NCBI RefSeq assembly: GCF_000384235.1
Contig: NZ_KB913033.1
Coordinates: forward strand, 1,619,164 to 1,683,163
Length of the DNA: 64,000 nt
Source: Hydrogenovibrio halophilus DSM 15072
GTDB taxonomy: Bacteria > Pseudomonadota > Gammaproteobacteria > Thiomicrospirales > Thiomicrospiraceae
Direction: 5' to 3'
Shown here: positions 19,387-24,436 of the stretch, one piece after another
How positions within the stretch are numbered: the first letter of the stretch is position 1
Layout of the letters: each line of letters opens with the position of its first letter
Notes under the pieces: generated by a model
Told to the model about the DNA's origin: nothing
What the model saw: only the letters and a program-made list of their open reading frames with translations
The model's database searches: none
Position numbers and translations under genes: made by a program

Positions 19387-19965
19387 TCAGTGCTTGTGTG
19401 CAATCAGTGCGAAATGGTGGGGACAGCTGGCGGAAATGTCGGGTTGTTCGATCTGGGCAAACCCGGCCCGATGGGCCCAGTGTTTGCATTCCTGCGGTTT
19501 GGGACGGATATCAAGCGACGGGCCTCTGGGCGTGGGTTGATCGCTGCGCCAGTGAAGCATCAGCAGTCGCCCGCCAGGGGTGAGCACCCGAAAGGCTTCG
19601 GCCAGCAATAGCACTGGATGGGGCAGGTGCAGCAGATTAAACACCACAACCAGTGATTGTGATGCACGTGGCAGCCCAAACCCCTGTTCCAGAAAATCAC
19701 CGCAATGAACTCGCAAACGTGACAAATCGGACGTGCGTTTGAGCGTCCGCAGTTGCGTACACAGCGCCGATTCAATCTCCCAGGCATGAACGTTGCCAGT
19801 AACGGAGTCGTGAATGGCGGGTGTGAAGGTGCCATAGCCTGCACCCAGTTCGAGTGCATCGCCAGCAATTGGCGCGTCTGGCACCAGTGTTTCCAGCAAC
19901 GTTTCCGGATCAAAAAAACTGGCCCAAAGTTCGGTTTCAGGCATGTCGCTTTCGGGTATTTTCAT
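19387..19965 (-). CDS. class I SAM-dependent methyltransferase
   Basis: A 192-aa methyltransferase-like protein. Motif I is LELGAGYGTFT, an acidic residue ends the second strand (AWEIE), VHCGDFLE follows, and FRVLTPGGRLLMLHW is the post-motif typical of small-molecule methyltransferases. It starts 14 bases after the transporter stop with AGGGA upstream, so it is the third gene of the persulfide dioxygenase operon. A role in methylating a sulfur or other metabolite is possible but not shown by the sequence. Confidence 0.8.
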   Translation of the reverse strand: MKIPESDMPETELWASFFDPETLLETLVPDAPIAGDALELGAGYGTFTPAIHDSVTGNVHAWEIESALCTQLRTLKRTSDLSRLRVHCGDFLEQGFGLPRASQSLVVVFNLLHLPHPVLLLAEAFRVLTPGGRLLMLHWRSDQPTPRGPSLDIRPKPQECKHWAHRAGFAQIEQPDISASCPHHFALIAHKH

Positions 19966-19979
19966 TCAACCGATCCCTG

Positions 19980-21077
19980 TTATTGCCAGTGTTTTTCCAG
20001 TTTGACGCCGACCCAGGCACCCGCAAGGATGGCGGCCAGCGCCATAAAGGATCCGAGTGCCAGTGTGGCTGTGCCGGTGAGGCCATGCCCGATGGAACAG
20101 CCCATGGCCAGTACGGCCCCAAATCCGACCATGACCGCGCCTACTGTCGAAAGCCATGCGTCTTTGATCGAGGCAAACCCTTTCCACTGGAATGTTCCCT
20201 GCATCAATGCGCTGATCAGGGAGCCGATGGCCAGCCCGAACACCGCAATCACGCCAAAGGTGACCAATGCCCATTGCGGGTCACTGAAATAATACACCAC
20301 ATCGCCCATGGGGGCGGCAAAGGTGAACGACTGGGTGGCCAGACCGTTTGGTGGGGTTTCCATAAACATGGCCTCTTCCTGCAGGTATTGGCCATAGTCA
20401 CCACCGGTCAGGACAAAGGCCGCTGCGACCACGCCGCCGATGACCAGAGACGTGAGGACAGGACCGGGTCGGCGAAAGGCGGAAAAGCGCCACAGCAAAA
20501 ACGCCAATAGAGCCAACCCGATCACGCTGCCCAGCCAGAGTCTGGCGGATTCGACGGAATCGCTGCTGGCCAGAAGTGTGCCCAGGTCCTGCTGTCCGGC
20601 AGACAGGGTGGTGGTCATGGGGGCGACCACAGGCAGGACCCAGCTGGCAAAAAATTCGGTGCGGGTCATGATGTAGGCGACCACGGACATGACGGCGACC
20701 AGCCACAGGGCTTTGAAACTGCCTTCGCCCACCCGGATCAGATTGCGCATACTGCAACCGGCAGCCAGTACCATGCCGAACCCAAAGACAAACCCGCCGA
20801 TCAAATAACGGCCCCAGGCCAGGTCGCCACTGCGATAAGGCGGCGTGGTTGTGTTGAGACTGACCAGTCCGGCCGCTTCCAGCCAGGCGGTGATCGCAAT
20901 GACCACACCGATGGCACCAAAATAGGTGGCCAGTCGCACCGGATTGCGCTCTTTCACCCACTCTCTGATGCCGCCGACGGGGCAGAAAGCGCTGCGCTGT
21001 GCGGCGAACCCAAAGATCAATGCCAGCGCCAGCACCATTAAAAAGTACGGCCAAAAAACCGAAAGCAATGATTCCAT
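19980..21077 (-). CDS. YeeE/YedE-family sulfur transporter
   Basis: Inner-membrane protein of 365 aa with about nine or more hydrophobic helices. Two inverted-repeat-like cores, AAGCSMRNLIRVGEG and AMGCSIGHGLTGT, each carry the conserved cysteine in a GC-S motif that relays thiosulfate or sulfane sulfur in YeeE (TsuA). RNPVRLATYFG also fits the family. AAGGAG lies 9 bases before the ATG. It follows the persulfide dioxygenase by 59 bases. It probably imports a reduced sulfur species for oxidation or assimilation. Confidence 0.88.
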   Translation of the reverse strand: MESLLSVFWPYFLMVLALALIFGFAAQRSAFCPVGGIREWVKERNPVRLATYFGAIGVVIAITAWLEAAGLVSLNTTTPPYRSGDLAWGRYLIGGFVFGFGMVLAAGCSMRNLIRVGEGSFKALWLVAVMSVVAYIMTRTEFFASWVLPVVAPMTTTLSAGQQDLGTLLASSDSVESARLWLGSVIGLALLAFLLWRFSAFRRPGPVLTSLVIGGVVAAAFVLTGGDYGQYLQEEAMFMETPPNGLATQSFTFAAPMGDVVYYFSDPQWALVTFGVIAVFGLAIGSLISALMQGTFQWKGFASIKDAWLSTVGAVMVGFGAVLAMGCSIGHGLTGTATLALGSFMALAAILAGAWVGVKLEKHWQ

Positions 21078-21136: not shown

Positions 21137-21880
21137 CTAGCTGGCCTTGGCCGGGTTGACGTTAAAGCCGATGATGTCCTGCATTTCAGGCGGTTGCGGC
21201 AGAATGGCGCCCAACACCTCTTTGACAAAATCGTCTTTGCTCATACTCAGGCTGGCATTGTGCTTTTTCTCAAAGCCGATGGTGGAAAACGGCTTGCCGC
21301 TGATGCCGGCCCCGCAGACGCTGCCAGCCTGGGCACCAGGAAGAATTTCCATGGTGTCGGGCAAAGGCAGCAGACGGTTGTGAATGGAGTCATACAGCTT
21401 GTTGGCCATTTCCTCCGCGCGGCCTTTCAGGTCGGGACGGCCGACGCTGCCGACAAACAGGGTGTGACCGGTGACCAGAAACCAGGGTTCGTCGGTACGG
21501 GAGCGGTCCGTGACCATCAGCGTGATGCTGTCTTCTGTGTGGCCCGGTGTGTAGAGCACTTCGACCGCCACATTGCCTGCGGTCAGTTCCTGATTGTCCT
21601 CCAATGGCAGGAACTCACAGGTCGCAGGCGAATCCTTGTGCAGTGCGTACTGTCCGCCTGAACGCTGAGCCAGCTCATAGCCGCCTGTGTAATGGTCGGC
21701 GTGAACGTGGGTGTCAATCACATAGGCGATTTTAATGCCCTTTTGTGCCGCAATCTTCATGTAAAGATCGACTTCGTCCTGATGCACGTCAACGACAATG
21801 CCCAGGCCCTGGCCGACGCAGCCCAGCAGGTAAGAAAGGGAGCCGGGTTCGGATTCTGGCGTGTGTTGAAACAAAAACAT
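21137..21880 (-). CDS. persulfide dioxygenase-like metallo-beta-lactamase-fold protein
   Basis: A 247-aa ETHE1/Blh-type enzyme expected to oxidise glutathione persulfide to sulfite. The metal-binding signature THVHADHYTGG (residues 57-67), CTPGHTEDS-like LYTPGHTEDS, and the family block TLFVGSVGRPDL are all present, followed by the product-site region LPLPDTMEILPGA. CAGGAG lies 7 bases before the ATG. It is first gene of the operon with the YeeE/YedE transporter and methyltransferase, and divergent from an MFS gene across operator palindromes. It is not fused to a rhodanese. The periplasmic rhodanese at 6.5 kb is unlinked. Confidence 0.9.
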   Translation of the reverse strand: MFLFQHTPESEPGSLSYLLGCVGQGLGIVVDVHQDEVDLYMKIAAQKGIKIAYVIDTHVHADHYTGGYELAQRSGGQYALHKDSPATCEFLPLEDNQELTAGNVAVEVLYTPGHTEDSITLMVTDRSRTDEPWFLVTGHTLFVGSVGRPDLKGRAEEMANKLYDSIHNRLLPLPDTMEILPGAQAGSVCGAGISGKPFSTIGFEKKHNASLSMSKDDFVKEVLGAILPQPPEMQDIIGFNVNPAKAS

Positions 21881-21940: not shown

Positions 21941-21958
21941 TTCAACCAGGTAGTTGAA
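21941..21958. promoter_or_regulatory. operator palindrome 1 (TTCAAC-N6-GTTGAA)
   Basis: Perfect inverted repeat TTCAACCAGGTAGTTGAA, flanked by A and T to give ATTCAAC...GTTGAAT. It lies downstream of the presumed start site of the persulfide dioxygenase operon, a roadblock position. Confidence 0.7.
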
Positions 21959-21983
21959 TGATGTCACTTTAGCGGTTTCCGCG

Positions 21984-22012
21984 ATTATATTCAACGGATT
22001 AGTTGATTTAAT
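21984..22012 (-). promoter_or_regulatory. candidate promoter of the persulfide dioxygenase operon
   Basis: On the minus strand a TATAAT -10 occupies 21989-21984, with weak -35 ATTAAA at 22012-22007 and a 17-base spacer. Operator 2 exactly fills the spacer. Confidence 0.45.
21990..22007. promoter_or_regulatory. operator palindrome 2 (TTCAAC-N6-GTTGAT)
   Basis: TTCAACGGATTAGTTGAT differs from the perfect repeat at one position. It fills the -10/-35 spacer of the minus-strand promoter, so a bound protein would block RNA polymerase. Confidence 0.7.
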
Positions 22013-22050
22013 TTTTTTAAAGCAGATAAAAAAATTTGGCACAGGAATGT

Positions 22051-22079
22051 TTGCAATTTGCGCGCGCCTCACTTAGTGT
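22051..22079 (+). promoter_or_regulatory. candidate promoter of the MFS gene
   Basis: TTGCAA (22051-22056), a 17-base spacer, then TAGTGT (22074-22079). Operator 3 begins at the last base of the -10. The hexamers are only moderate matches. Confidence 0.35.
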
Positions 22080-22096
22080 TCAACTAAATGGTTGAA
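22079..22096. promoter_or_regulatory. operator palindrome 3 (TTCAAC-N6-GTTGAA)
   Basis: Perfect repeat TTCAACTAAATGGTTGAA, 14 bases before the MFS start codon and overlapping its predicted transcription start. Confidence 0.7.
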
Positions 22097-22110: not shown

Positions 22111-23421
22111 ATGAGCGAGCAAATGCAACAGCAAACCGATCCGATCCAACATGGGATCAAAGCCAATCTGGATCAGATTATCCAGCAACTCATTCAGGTG
22201 TTTCTGGTGGGGTTGGCCATCGGGATGACCCGTACGGTGGTACCAGGCCTGGCAGAAACCGAGTTTGGGCTGGCCGAGCAGGCGTTTATGAGTCTGGCCC
22301 TGTTTGTGGTGGTGTTTGGGTTGGTGAAAGCCAGTATGAACCTGCTGGCGGGGCATCTGAGTGATCAGTTCGGGCGTCGGCGTCTGCTGGTTGCGGGCTG
22401 GTTGTTGGCGATTCCGGTGCCGTTTTTGATTTTCTATGCGCAAAACTGGTGGTGGATCATTGCGGCCATGGTGTTTTTGGGGCTGAACCAGGGGCTGTGC
22501 TGGTCAATGGCGCTCAATTCCAAGCTGGACCTGGCCAAGGCCAGTCAAAAAGGGTTGGTCAATGGCTTTAATGAGTTTTCAGGCTATGCCGCCGTGGGGC
22601 TGGCCGGCTGGATTACGGCTTGGATGGCCGAACAGATGGGCGCACGTGAGGCCTTGTTGGTGTTTGGTCTGGTGGTCATTGCGCTGGGGCTGTTTCTGGC
22701 GATTGTCAAAGTGATCGATACCCATCCCTGGTCGCAACTGCACCAGCAGAAGCATCAGGAAGCACAGGCCGAAAAGGCGGCGGAAAATGGTCAGGCGGTC
22801 GAGCCGACCCAAAAAGCCACTTTGGGTGCGATGATGGTGTACGCCACGTTCAAACAGCCGCAATTGATGGCGCTCAACCAGGCAGGCCTGGTCGAAAAGT
22901 TCATTGATGCACTGGTGTGGGTGTTTATGCCGGTGTTCCTGATTTCGCAGTCGCAAACGCTGGTGCAGGCCAGTGCGATCATTGCTATTTATGGCGTGGT
23001 CTGGGGCGGTTCCCAGTTGATCACCGGCCCTTTGTCCGACAAATGGGGACGTCGCGGGCTGATCGTCGGTGGCTTCTGGCTGTGTGCGATCACCAGTTTC
23101 GGCTTTGTGATGACCGACAGTGCCTGGGTCTGGTCTGTGCTGGCGGGCTTGATGGGCTTTGGCATGGCCATGCTTTATCCCACGCTGGGGGCGGCTGTGG
23201 CCGACGTCAGTGAACCACGGGTGCGTGCCAGTGTGCTGGGGATTTACCGTTTCTGGCGTGATTTCGGTTATGCGGCCGGGGCCTTTTTAATGGGGTTGCT
23301 GGCGTTTTATTCCGAATCTGTGGTCTGGCCGTTTTACTTTGTCGGGGGTATGATGTTCCTGTCCGGCCTTTGGGTGTGGGTGGCCTTGTCGCCCAAAGCC
23401 ATGGAAGCCGGTAAAAAATAA
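22111..23421 (+). CDS. MFS transporter
   Basis: A 436-aa major facilitator with about twelve hydrophobic helices. The signature loops are present in both halves: GHLSDQFGRRRLLV between helices 2 and 3, and GPLSDKWGRRGLIV in the second half. A hydrophilic Gln/Glu-rich central loop lies at about residues 208-235. The substrate is not evident. Sharing operators with the divergent persulfide dioxygenase operon suggests it moves a sulfur compound, a related toxicant or a metal. AAGGGA precedes the ATG. A near match of the iterated palindrome at 22242 encodes Pro-Gly-Leu. Confidence 0.88.
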   Translation: MSEQMQQQTDPIQHGIKANLDQIIQQLIQVFLVGLAIGMTRTVVPGLAETEFGLAEQAFMSLALFVVVFGLVKASMNLLAGHLSDQFGRRRLLVAGWLLAIPVPFLIFYAQNWWWIIAAMVFLGLNQGLCWSMALNSKLDLAKASQKGLVNGFNEFSGYAAVGLAGWITAWMAEQMGAREALLVFGLVVIALGLFLAIVKVIDTHPWSQLHQQKHQEAQAEKAAENGQAVEPTQKATLGAMMVYATFKQPQLMALNQAGLVEKFIDALVWVFMPVFLISQSQTLVQASAIIAIYGVVWGGSQLITGPLSDKWGRRGLIVGGFWLCAITSFGFVMTDSAWVWSVLAGLMGFGMAMLYPTLGAAVADVSEPRVRASVLGIYRFWRDFGYAAGAFLMGLLAFYSESVVWPFYFVGGMMFLSGLWVWVALSPKAMEAGKK

Positions 23422-23518: not shown

Positions 23519-24436
23519 ATGCAATCATTGAAATATACTCGACGTCTGGCCGCATTGGCGCTGGGCAGTGTTTTGTCTTTGTCGACCTGGGCGGTTCAGG
23601 CGGAAGAAAAAGAAGTGAAACAGACCCTGGACGGGCAGACGCTCAATGCCAATCTGACGCTTTCCGATGACGGCTATCAGGGCGATGTGGTGCTTTTGTT
23701 GCACGGCACCTTGACCCATAACGAACGTTCCACCTATGCGCAACTGCAGAATAATCTGAAGGCCTACGGCATGACGTCTCTGGCGATCAATCTGTCGCTG
23801 GGGGTGGACGACCGTCACGGCGAGTATGACTGTGCGACCACCCATACCCACAAACACACCGATGCTCTGAAAGAACTGGGCCTGTGGATGGGCTGGCTCG
23901 AAAACAAAGGCGCGGAGAACATTACGTTGATGGGCCATTCCCGCGGTGGCAACCAGGCCGCTTGGTATGCTTCGGAAGCGCAGCGCCCCAGTTTGAAACA
24001 CCTGGTGTTGGTTGCTCCGGCCACCGGCGAGCAGCAGTCGCCTGCCGACTACAAAAAGAAATACGGTGTGGCGCTGGAATCCGTGCTGGACAAGGCCGAA
24101 GCGTTAGTGAAACAAGGCAAGGGCGACGAAGTGATGAAAGGCGAGGACTTCATTTATTGTGAAGACACCAATGTGACCGCAGAAGCCTTTGTGGATTACT
24201 ACGCCCAGCGTCCACAGTTTGACACGCCGACGTTGCTGCAGAACCCGGTTGTGCCCACGCTGGTGATCATGGGTACGGAAGACAATGTCGTGGCGGATTT
24301 GCCCGAAAAAATCGCCCCCGTCGCCGAACAGCAGGATCTGGTGACCACTGTGACACTTGACGGCGCCGATCACTTCTTCCGGGATTTCTTCAACGAGGAC
24401 ATCGCGATTGAGACGGAGCAATTCATTGCCGACTAA
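23519..24436 (+). CDS. secreted alpha/beta hydrolase
   Basis: A 305-aa protein with a signal peptide (AALALGSVLSLSTWAVQA, cleavage near residue 28). The alpha/beta-hydrolase core follows: VVLLLHG oxyanion block, nucleophile elbow LMGHSRGG (Ser141), catalytic Asp likely in IMGTEDNVV, and His in GADHFF. Two cysteines (in YDCAT and IYCED) could form a disulfide. The consensus AAGGAGG lies 8 bases before the ATG, which predicts strong translation. The substrate is unknown; DUF3530/esterase-like is one possibility. It overlaps the next gene. Confidence 0.82.
   Translation: MQSLKYTRRLAALALGSVLSLSTWAVQAEEKEVKQTLDGQTLNANLTLSDDGYQGDVVLLLHGTLTHNERSTYAQLQNNLKAYGMTSLAINLSLGVDDRHGEYDCATTHTHKHTDALKELGLWMGWLENKGAENITLMGHSRGGNQAAWYASEAQRPSLKHLVLVAPATGEQQSPADYKKKYGVALESVLDKAEALVKQGKGDEVMKGEDFIYCEDTNVTAEAFVDYYAQRPQFDTPTLLQNPVVPTLVIMGTEDNVVADLPEKIAPVAEQQDLVTTVTLDGADHFFRDFFNEDIAIETEQFIAD

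Follow-up and report, generated by a model that had tools for sequence, protein, structure and literature searches.

Three near-identical palindromes between a persulfide dioxygenase (PDO) operon and a divergent MFS transporter gene of Hydrogenovibrio halophilus DSM 15072 are, in our judgement, probably the sites through which an ArsR-rhodanese fusion protein encoded elsewhere in the genome represses transcription until its rhodanese cysteines take up sulfane sulfur. Our confidence in this explanation as a whole leans on the pairing of operator and regulator and on repression as the direction of control. The stretch of 64,000 nucleotides that was analysed is referred to below as the window, and the three palindromes are tentatively referred to as operators O1, O2, and O3 (Table 1).

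Three probable operators over two predicted promoters

O1 and O3 are perfect copies of TTCAAC-N6-GTTGAA and O2 deviates from it at one position, and in our sequence scan the positions and mismatch numbers were exactly those given in an earlier note on this DNA, which had proposed three operators here. A first-order Markov model (200 runs of the window) predicts 0.015 perfect sites and 0.27 sites with at most one mismatch per 64 kb, as compared with the 2 and 3 observed, all inside 156 bp; the three palindromes are genuine and far exceed chance expectation. The number of sites with three mismatches in the window is ordinary (39, against a shuffle mean of 30.9, with 39 reached in 9 of 100 shuffles), and therefore only near-perfect sites carry meaning. 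The earlier note had also called for a search of the genome for this motif, and across all 2,356,686 bp the only perfect copies are O1 and O3.

The leftward operon begins with the PDO-type gene, whose product matches ETHE1 (4chl, 2.5e-17) and an MBL-rhodanese protein (3tp9, 1.2e-34) by phmmer. The methyltransferase gene that ends the trio in Table 1 is found within the PDO operon of several relatives too (neighbourhood map), and in some relatives an operator precedes the gene for the alpha/beta hydrolase. A separate palindrome, CCAGGCCTGG, occurs 19 times in the window (including at 878, 1549, 2067, 6405, 9456, 12185, 17046, 22243, and 25021) and 599 times in the 2.36-Mb genome, or about once per 3.9 kb; the reversed control occurs once. 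The core CAGGCCTG of this palindrome is found often in the L119 and L124 stretches of relatives and not at all in L147 and L151; we take CCAGGCCTGG to be a highly iterated palindrome, HIP1-like.

Table 1. Genes, predicted operators, and predicted promoter elements in the window
Feature	Position	Strand	Evidence or remark
SAM-dependent methyltransferase, third leftward-operon gene	19387..19965	-	PF13649 2e-10
YeeE/TsuA-like sulfur transporter, second leftward-operon gene	19980..21077	-	PF04143 1.7e-50; 6leo 3.9e-14
Persulfide dioxygenase (PDO)-type MBL-fold protein, first leftward-operon gene	21137..21880	-	Lactamase_B
Operator O1 (predicted)	21941..21958	.	TTCAACCAGGTAGTTGAA, perfect; at predicted PDO-operon start site
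PDO-operon -10 (predicted), TAAAGT, 4/6	21966..21971	-	17-locus comparison
PDO-operon -35 (predicted), TTGAAT, inside O2	21989..21994	-	Phylogenetic footprint
Operator O2 (predicted)	21990..22007	.	TTCAACGGATTAGTTGAT, one mismatch; overlaps predicted PDO-operon -35
MFS -35 (predicted), TTGCAA	22051..22056	+	Nine-locus comparison
MFS -10 (predicted), TAGTGT, weak	22074..22079	+	Nine-locus comparison; last base is first base of O3
Operator O3 (predicted)	22079..22096	.	TTCAACTAAATGGTTGAA, perfect; overlaps predicted MFS -10
MFS transporter, divergent from PDO	22111..23421	+	PF07690 3.1e-42
Alpha/beta hydrolase, after MFS	23519..24436	+	PF00561

Promoters were compared across 17 loci, the window included, at which PDO and MFS genes are divergent and both are more than 65% identical, with the operator picked at each locus for the best match to a PDO promoter. 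In all 17, a -35 element of TTGAAT or TTGATT lies inside one operator and is followed by a -10 hexamer 17 bp on, and the operator that holds the -35 is the middle one at 9/9 loci with three sites. The -10 hexamer is TATAGT or TATATT (5/6 matches) at 14 loci, and matches at four or more positions at 16 (two of them at 4/6, the window's hexamer among these) and at 3/6 in the remaining one. Under this conserved reading, O1 lies over the start site predicted for the PDO operon. Spacing at the nine three-site loci, which come from eight genomes including that of the window, is 46-50 bp from O1 to O2 and 89-101 bp from O2 to O3; a fourth, weak operator site is present in L151 and L152. The earlier note had the middle site filling the -10/-35 spacer, a placement that gives way here to a predicted -35 inside the middle operator, as in the relatives. 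The spacer reading would use TATAAT at 21984-21989 as an alternative PDO -10, which is a 6/6 match in the window only; it is not conserved in relatives, and could still hold for the window genome alone, where TATAAT adjoins O2.

On the MFS side, all nine three-site loci have TTG[CT]NN, 17 bp, and then a hexamer that ends on the first T of the site, so that the earlier description of the last site as abutting the MFS -10 is borne out by an overlap common to this group. The hexamer has at least four matches to TATAAT at eight of the nine loci, the window being the one with three; both -10 hexamers predicted in the window are weak. None of the 8 loci that have one or two sites fits this MFS layout (-35 match at 1-2 of 6). 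As judged from sequence, all three operators would overlap a predicted core promoter or start site, which is the arrangement that a repressor would need.

An ArsR-rhodanese fusion linked to the operator

None of the six proteins around the site is a regulator, in agreement with the earlier note, and none of the genome's four PF01022 matches is in the window. PF12840 gives five matches: four exceed the cut-off and coincide with the PF01022 loci, and a fifth, at C1:471187, is weak and falls below it. One of these ArsR-type genes (C1:976780-977439; L005:1429-2091), about 664 kb from O1-O3, encodes an ArsR domain (PF01022 1e-8; NF033788 80.4 bits, cut-off 55) followed by a C-terminal rhodanese domain (PF00581 6.9e-18) with a catalytic Cys loop. 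An AlphaFold2 model of the orthologue in Thiomicrospira sp. WB1 (32 sequences; mean pLDDT 86.4, pTM 0.77) has one ArsR-like and one rhodanese-like half, and its best PDB matches in Foldseek are ArsR proteins, including 2kko, CzrA, and SqrR, with rhodanese-domain proteins lower.

The genome has nine instances of the pattern TTCAAC-N6-GTTNAW, three of which are O1-O3 and two of which belong to the ArsR-rhodanese locus. The site at the fusion's own gene, TTCAACTGAGTGGTTTAT, ends 9 bp before the ATG and overlaps a TATAAT; it carries two mismatches and is self-complementary at only 4/9 positions, and it recurs in G008 as TTCAACCAAGTGGTATAT, also with a TATAAT. The second site, TTCAACTAATCGGTTGAT, has one mismatch and lies 985 bp upstream of the first and 37 bp before moxR, which heads a MoxR-DUF58-VWA-VWA/TPR operon (L037 469-7731; C1:968468-975730); exact operator copies precede moxR in L119, L122, L124, and L128. 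A stress-type operon is thereby tied to the sulfur regulon. Of the remaining four places, 793987 is inside a called gene, and C1:374192, 782726, and 1022573 are intergenic by ORF calls. Among the matches listed (up to 1,557,632) there are at least six further one-mismatch sites, with four inside ORFs, one overlapping an ORF 3' end, and one (C1:374192) intergenic, so mismatch count alone cannot single out the locus of the fusion. With two mismatches allowed, the genome-wide search found 147 forward places, and 57 with the reversed control, which makes this threshold too loose to use. The loci of two other ArsR-type genes (C1:460268 and C1:1042558) contain no site with fewer than three mismatches. 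The ArsR-type gene in L003 344-1803 (C1:459111-460570) is divergent from a gene for a permease-like membrane protein, and the two perhaps form a separate metal(loid) system.

We searched 62 genomes of the family, which is probably Thiomicrospiraceae, given that Thiomicrospira, Thiomicrorhabdus, and Hydrogenovibrio are among its named members; widening the search to the order yielded these 62 again. The fusion is present in 44 of them (E 1e-20) and PDO in 24 (E 1e-40). The refined palindrome TTCAACYANNTRGTTGAA has 33 exact places in 22 of the 62 genomes, and all 22 have the fusion (52-100% identity). Measured from the called start (that of the longest ORF) of a regulon gene, every one of the 33 places falls between 400 bp upstream and 60 bp inside, the regulon genes being PDO, MFS, ArsR-rhodanese, alpha/beta hydrolase, and moxR. 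With the helix read in some, though not every, distant homologue, 28 genomes count as having a Lys-type recognition helix (see below), and the exact site is present in 22/28 of these versus 0/34 others (Fisher p 1e-11, a value that, like the locus counts, overstates independence because of relatedness among genomes and among loci, with L151 and L152 both from a single genome); the other six Lys-type genomes have near-consensus sites.

At 17 family loci the fusion is encoded behind PDO in the same direction. It adjoins PDO or follows one small ORF at ten of them (L119, L120, L121, L123, and L128; L134, L145, L147, L154, and L160), and comes after YeeE, with or without the methyltransferase, at seven (L124, L127, L139, L150, L151, L152, and L158). 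Unlike at these loci, the fusion in the window's genome stands apart from the PDO operon. G059 retains only fragments of PDO and fusion, side by side (L132 6199-6764), with no operator of at most one mismatch in that stretch and no exact site in the genome; there PDO and fusion may have been lost together, as one module. In G056, a separate rhodanese whose loop reads CNGPWC is encoded downstream of the ArsR-rhodanese gene (L124 12921-13619).

Outside the family, the motif was found in one of 181 Gammaproteobacteria (from a background sample of 184), namely in G105, which falls outside the low-contamination set of the background search. There it lies 24 bp before an ArsR-rhodanese gene whose product has 45% identity and a Lys-type helix; G105 was the only one of these genomes in which the fusion was sought.

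A recognition-helix residue that tracks one operator base

The recognition helix was compared with the operator at family loci that have a fusion and a site passing a filter blind to the sixth base. Among the loci with the helix ANVSKHL (Lys), 21 of 22 show TTCAAC..GTTGAA, with GTTGAT in L156; the 22nd, L147, has hybrids among its filtered sites, such as TTCAATCAATTGGTTGAA, but TTCAACTAAACGGTTGAA is also present. All six loci with ANTSRHL (Arg) show TTCAAT with ATTGAA or ATTGAG, and the Arg type is also seen, at the same MFS promoter, in members of the genus to which the window belongs (L161 and L164). Sites that were absent or dropped by the filter leave out some Lys loci of the family (L126, L131, L140, L141, L143, and L150, of which L131, L140, and L150 do have sites that the filter dropped) and some Arg loci (L133, L135, L136, and L162, with L133 combining an Arg helix with the hybrid TTCAACGATTTAATTGAA, which the filter dropped).

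An alignment-based search of contigs yielded a wider set of 66 fusion loci (a single-protein query returned none), of which 61 were scanned, 17 from the family and 44 others. In the latter group, 8/8 loci with Lys or Arg and a filtered site obey the same rule (3/3 Lys and 5/5 Arg); L194, L197, L198, L199, L205, and L211 are Arg loci outside the family that lack a filtered site, and the Gln-type loci L187, L219, and L223 have other palindromes. Paraliobacillus and Jeotgalibacillus, with an NTSK or NASK helix, have TTCAAC, and Paenibacillus, with an NVSR helix, has TTCAAT. In these three genera, which we take to be Bacillota, Thr or Ala accompanies Lys and Val accompanies Arg, and thus it is Lys/Arg, not Val/Thr, that tracks the operator base.

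Taken together, the restriction of the sites to one gene set, their link to the fusion, and the tracking of the operator base by the helix, all read from sequence, indicate that O1-O3 very probably belong to the ArsR-rhodanese protein.

Proposed repression and sulfur sensing, and related regulators

That the fusion acts as a repressor has strong odds in our view, given that its predicted sites coincide with core promoter elements. That the signal is read by the rhodanese dithiol seems fairly likely. The loop CRGPYC (CRGPFC in one sequence) begins with Cys176 and ends, six residues long, with Cys181, and both cysteines are present in 40/40 fusions from loci fetched after a whole-protein search; a 41st aligned row is a stand-alone rhodanese and was left out of this count. 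Cys38 occurs in only 19 of the 41 rows, including that of the rhodanese that is no fusion. For the 66-locus set the invariance of the cysteines is biased, as one of the two patterns behind it contained YCRGPYC, and the 40/40 count is relied on instead.

In the mechanism that we infer, from DNA binding and repression to inducer and cysteine chemistry, a fusion dimer would occupy O1 and O2 when sulfane sulfur is lacking, at the start site and the -35 of the PDO-YeeE-methyltransferase operon, and likewise O3 at the MFS -10 and start, and RNA polymerase would be excluded. The fusion would also repress its own gene and the MoxR-DUF58-VWA operon. Sulfur from persulfide or thiosulfate would then load Cys176, with Cys181 as partner, and the fusion would change shape and leave the DNA, so that the genes for PDO, the sulfur transporter, and the MFS protein would be turned on.

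It is unlikely that the fusion binds O1-O3 as an activator or dual regulator instead, or that it reads metal, redox state, or sulfite. ArsR members can activate, as with HlyU, a transcriptional activator according to the available text of PMC10509353, and the rhodanese domain could act as an ordinary redox dithiol; against this, the three operators have the layout of a repressor, and the regulon includes PDO and the sulfur transporter.

The earlier note had pointed to persulfide-sensing ArsR-type repressors of the BigR/SqrR kind. Control by an ArsR-type protein, in trans, of the PDO operon and the divergent MFS gene agrees with our results; the identification with BigR/SqrR does not, as the motif is linked to an ArsR-rhodanese fusion that lacks their cysteine pair, and the operator reads ATTC-N12-GAAT. 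There is common ground, in that BigR of Xylella and Agrobacterium and SqrR of Rhodobacter, as far as the available accounts describe them, share with the fusion an ArsR winged helix-turn-helix, a persulfide dioxygenase-type target, and a site in the core promoter, and that, by gene content and sites, the predicted targets of the fusion are likewise genes for persulfide oxidation and sulfur transport. BigR is reported to recognise the -10 region and to sense through Cys42/Cys108 (available text of PMC5823870), a pair that the fusion lacks: the first position is Asp31, invariant in 19/19 aligned fusions, and residues 84-117 contain no common Cys (one sequence each at 88 and 99, n=32). The fusion scores 54.7 bits on the BigR model (cut-off 155), about the same as on the TsoR model (55.7 bits, cut-off 115), and BigR and SqrR have no rhodanese domain. 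The SqrR site is reported as ATTC-N8-GAAT (available text of PMC9774250), as opposed to ATTC-N12-GAAT at O1. The cysteines, the model score, and the spacing of the operator, together with the absence of a correlation, led us to reject the BigR/SqrR assignment.

Also close is YgaV of E. coli, which the available text of PMC9774250 describes as a sulfide-responsive, self-regulating ArsR-type repressor beside a rhodanese. YgaV and YgaP are two separate proteins, however, whereas ArsR and rhodanese are fused in the window genome, and YgaV is reported to sense with Cys31/Cys98, whereas in the fusion Asp31 takes the place of a Cys of the genome's HlyU/YgaV-like protein. SoxR and sHdrR of Hyphomicrobium are likewise ArsR-type, sulfane-sulfur-responsive repressors of sulfur oxidation genes; the available descriptions do not present them as rhodanese fusions.

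The HlyU/YgaV-like protein itself (103 aa, C1:206022-206330; L004:1423-1731) is the candidate for a BigR/SqrR/YgaV-type repressor that would bind O1-O3 by way of an ArsR-domain cysteine pair, which we regard as very improbable: it is ArsR-type, reaches 62 bits against the BigR model when a longer start is used (cut-off 155), matches the structures of HlyU, YgaV, and BigR by sequence, and has two cysteines that align with those of HlyU, a persulfide-responsive protein (available text of PMC10509353), but it is present in 60/62 family genomes as compared with 22 for the motif and so does not track it, its recognition helix differs (NISQH), its 3.1-kb locus has no site with at most two mismatches, and ATTC-N8-GAAT as reported for SqrR (PMC9774250, available text) is not the spacing at O1.

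ArsR-family control of persulfide oxidation is already known, and the new part is apparently a member that is fused to a rhodanese and has an operator code of its own; our literature search, which covered mostly journals outside subscription, found no title or abstract on an ArsR-rhodanese fusion regulator. We lean towards the broader view that such fusions are widespread, apparently uncharacterised sulfane-sulfur-sensing repressors in which the CRGPYC dithiol has replaced the ArsR-domain cysteine pair as the sensor, and which would bind 18-20 bp of (A)TTCAAY-N6-RTTGAA(T), with the sixth base set by a Lys/Arg switch in a code common to Pseudomonadota and Bacillota. If the rhodanese loop is the sensor, an enzyme domain that accepts thiosulfate or persulfide sulfur would directly gate transcription. 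The analysis thus offers a testable model with a sulfurtransferase domain as the sensor in place of a cysteine pair in the DNA-binding domain, together with a simple specificity switch of one residue and one base. For this family of reduced-sulfur chemolithoautotrophs, it names a likely regulator, an operator, and a core regulon for the detoxification of sulfide and persulfide, and would tie a MoxR-DUF58-VWA operon without obvious sulfur function to the same signal.
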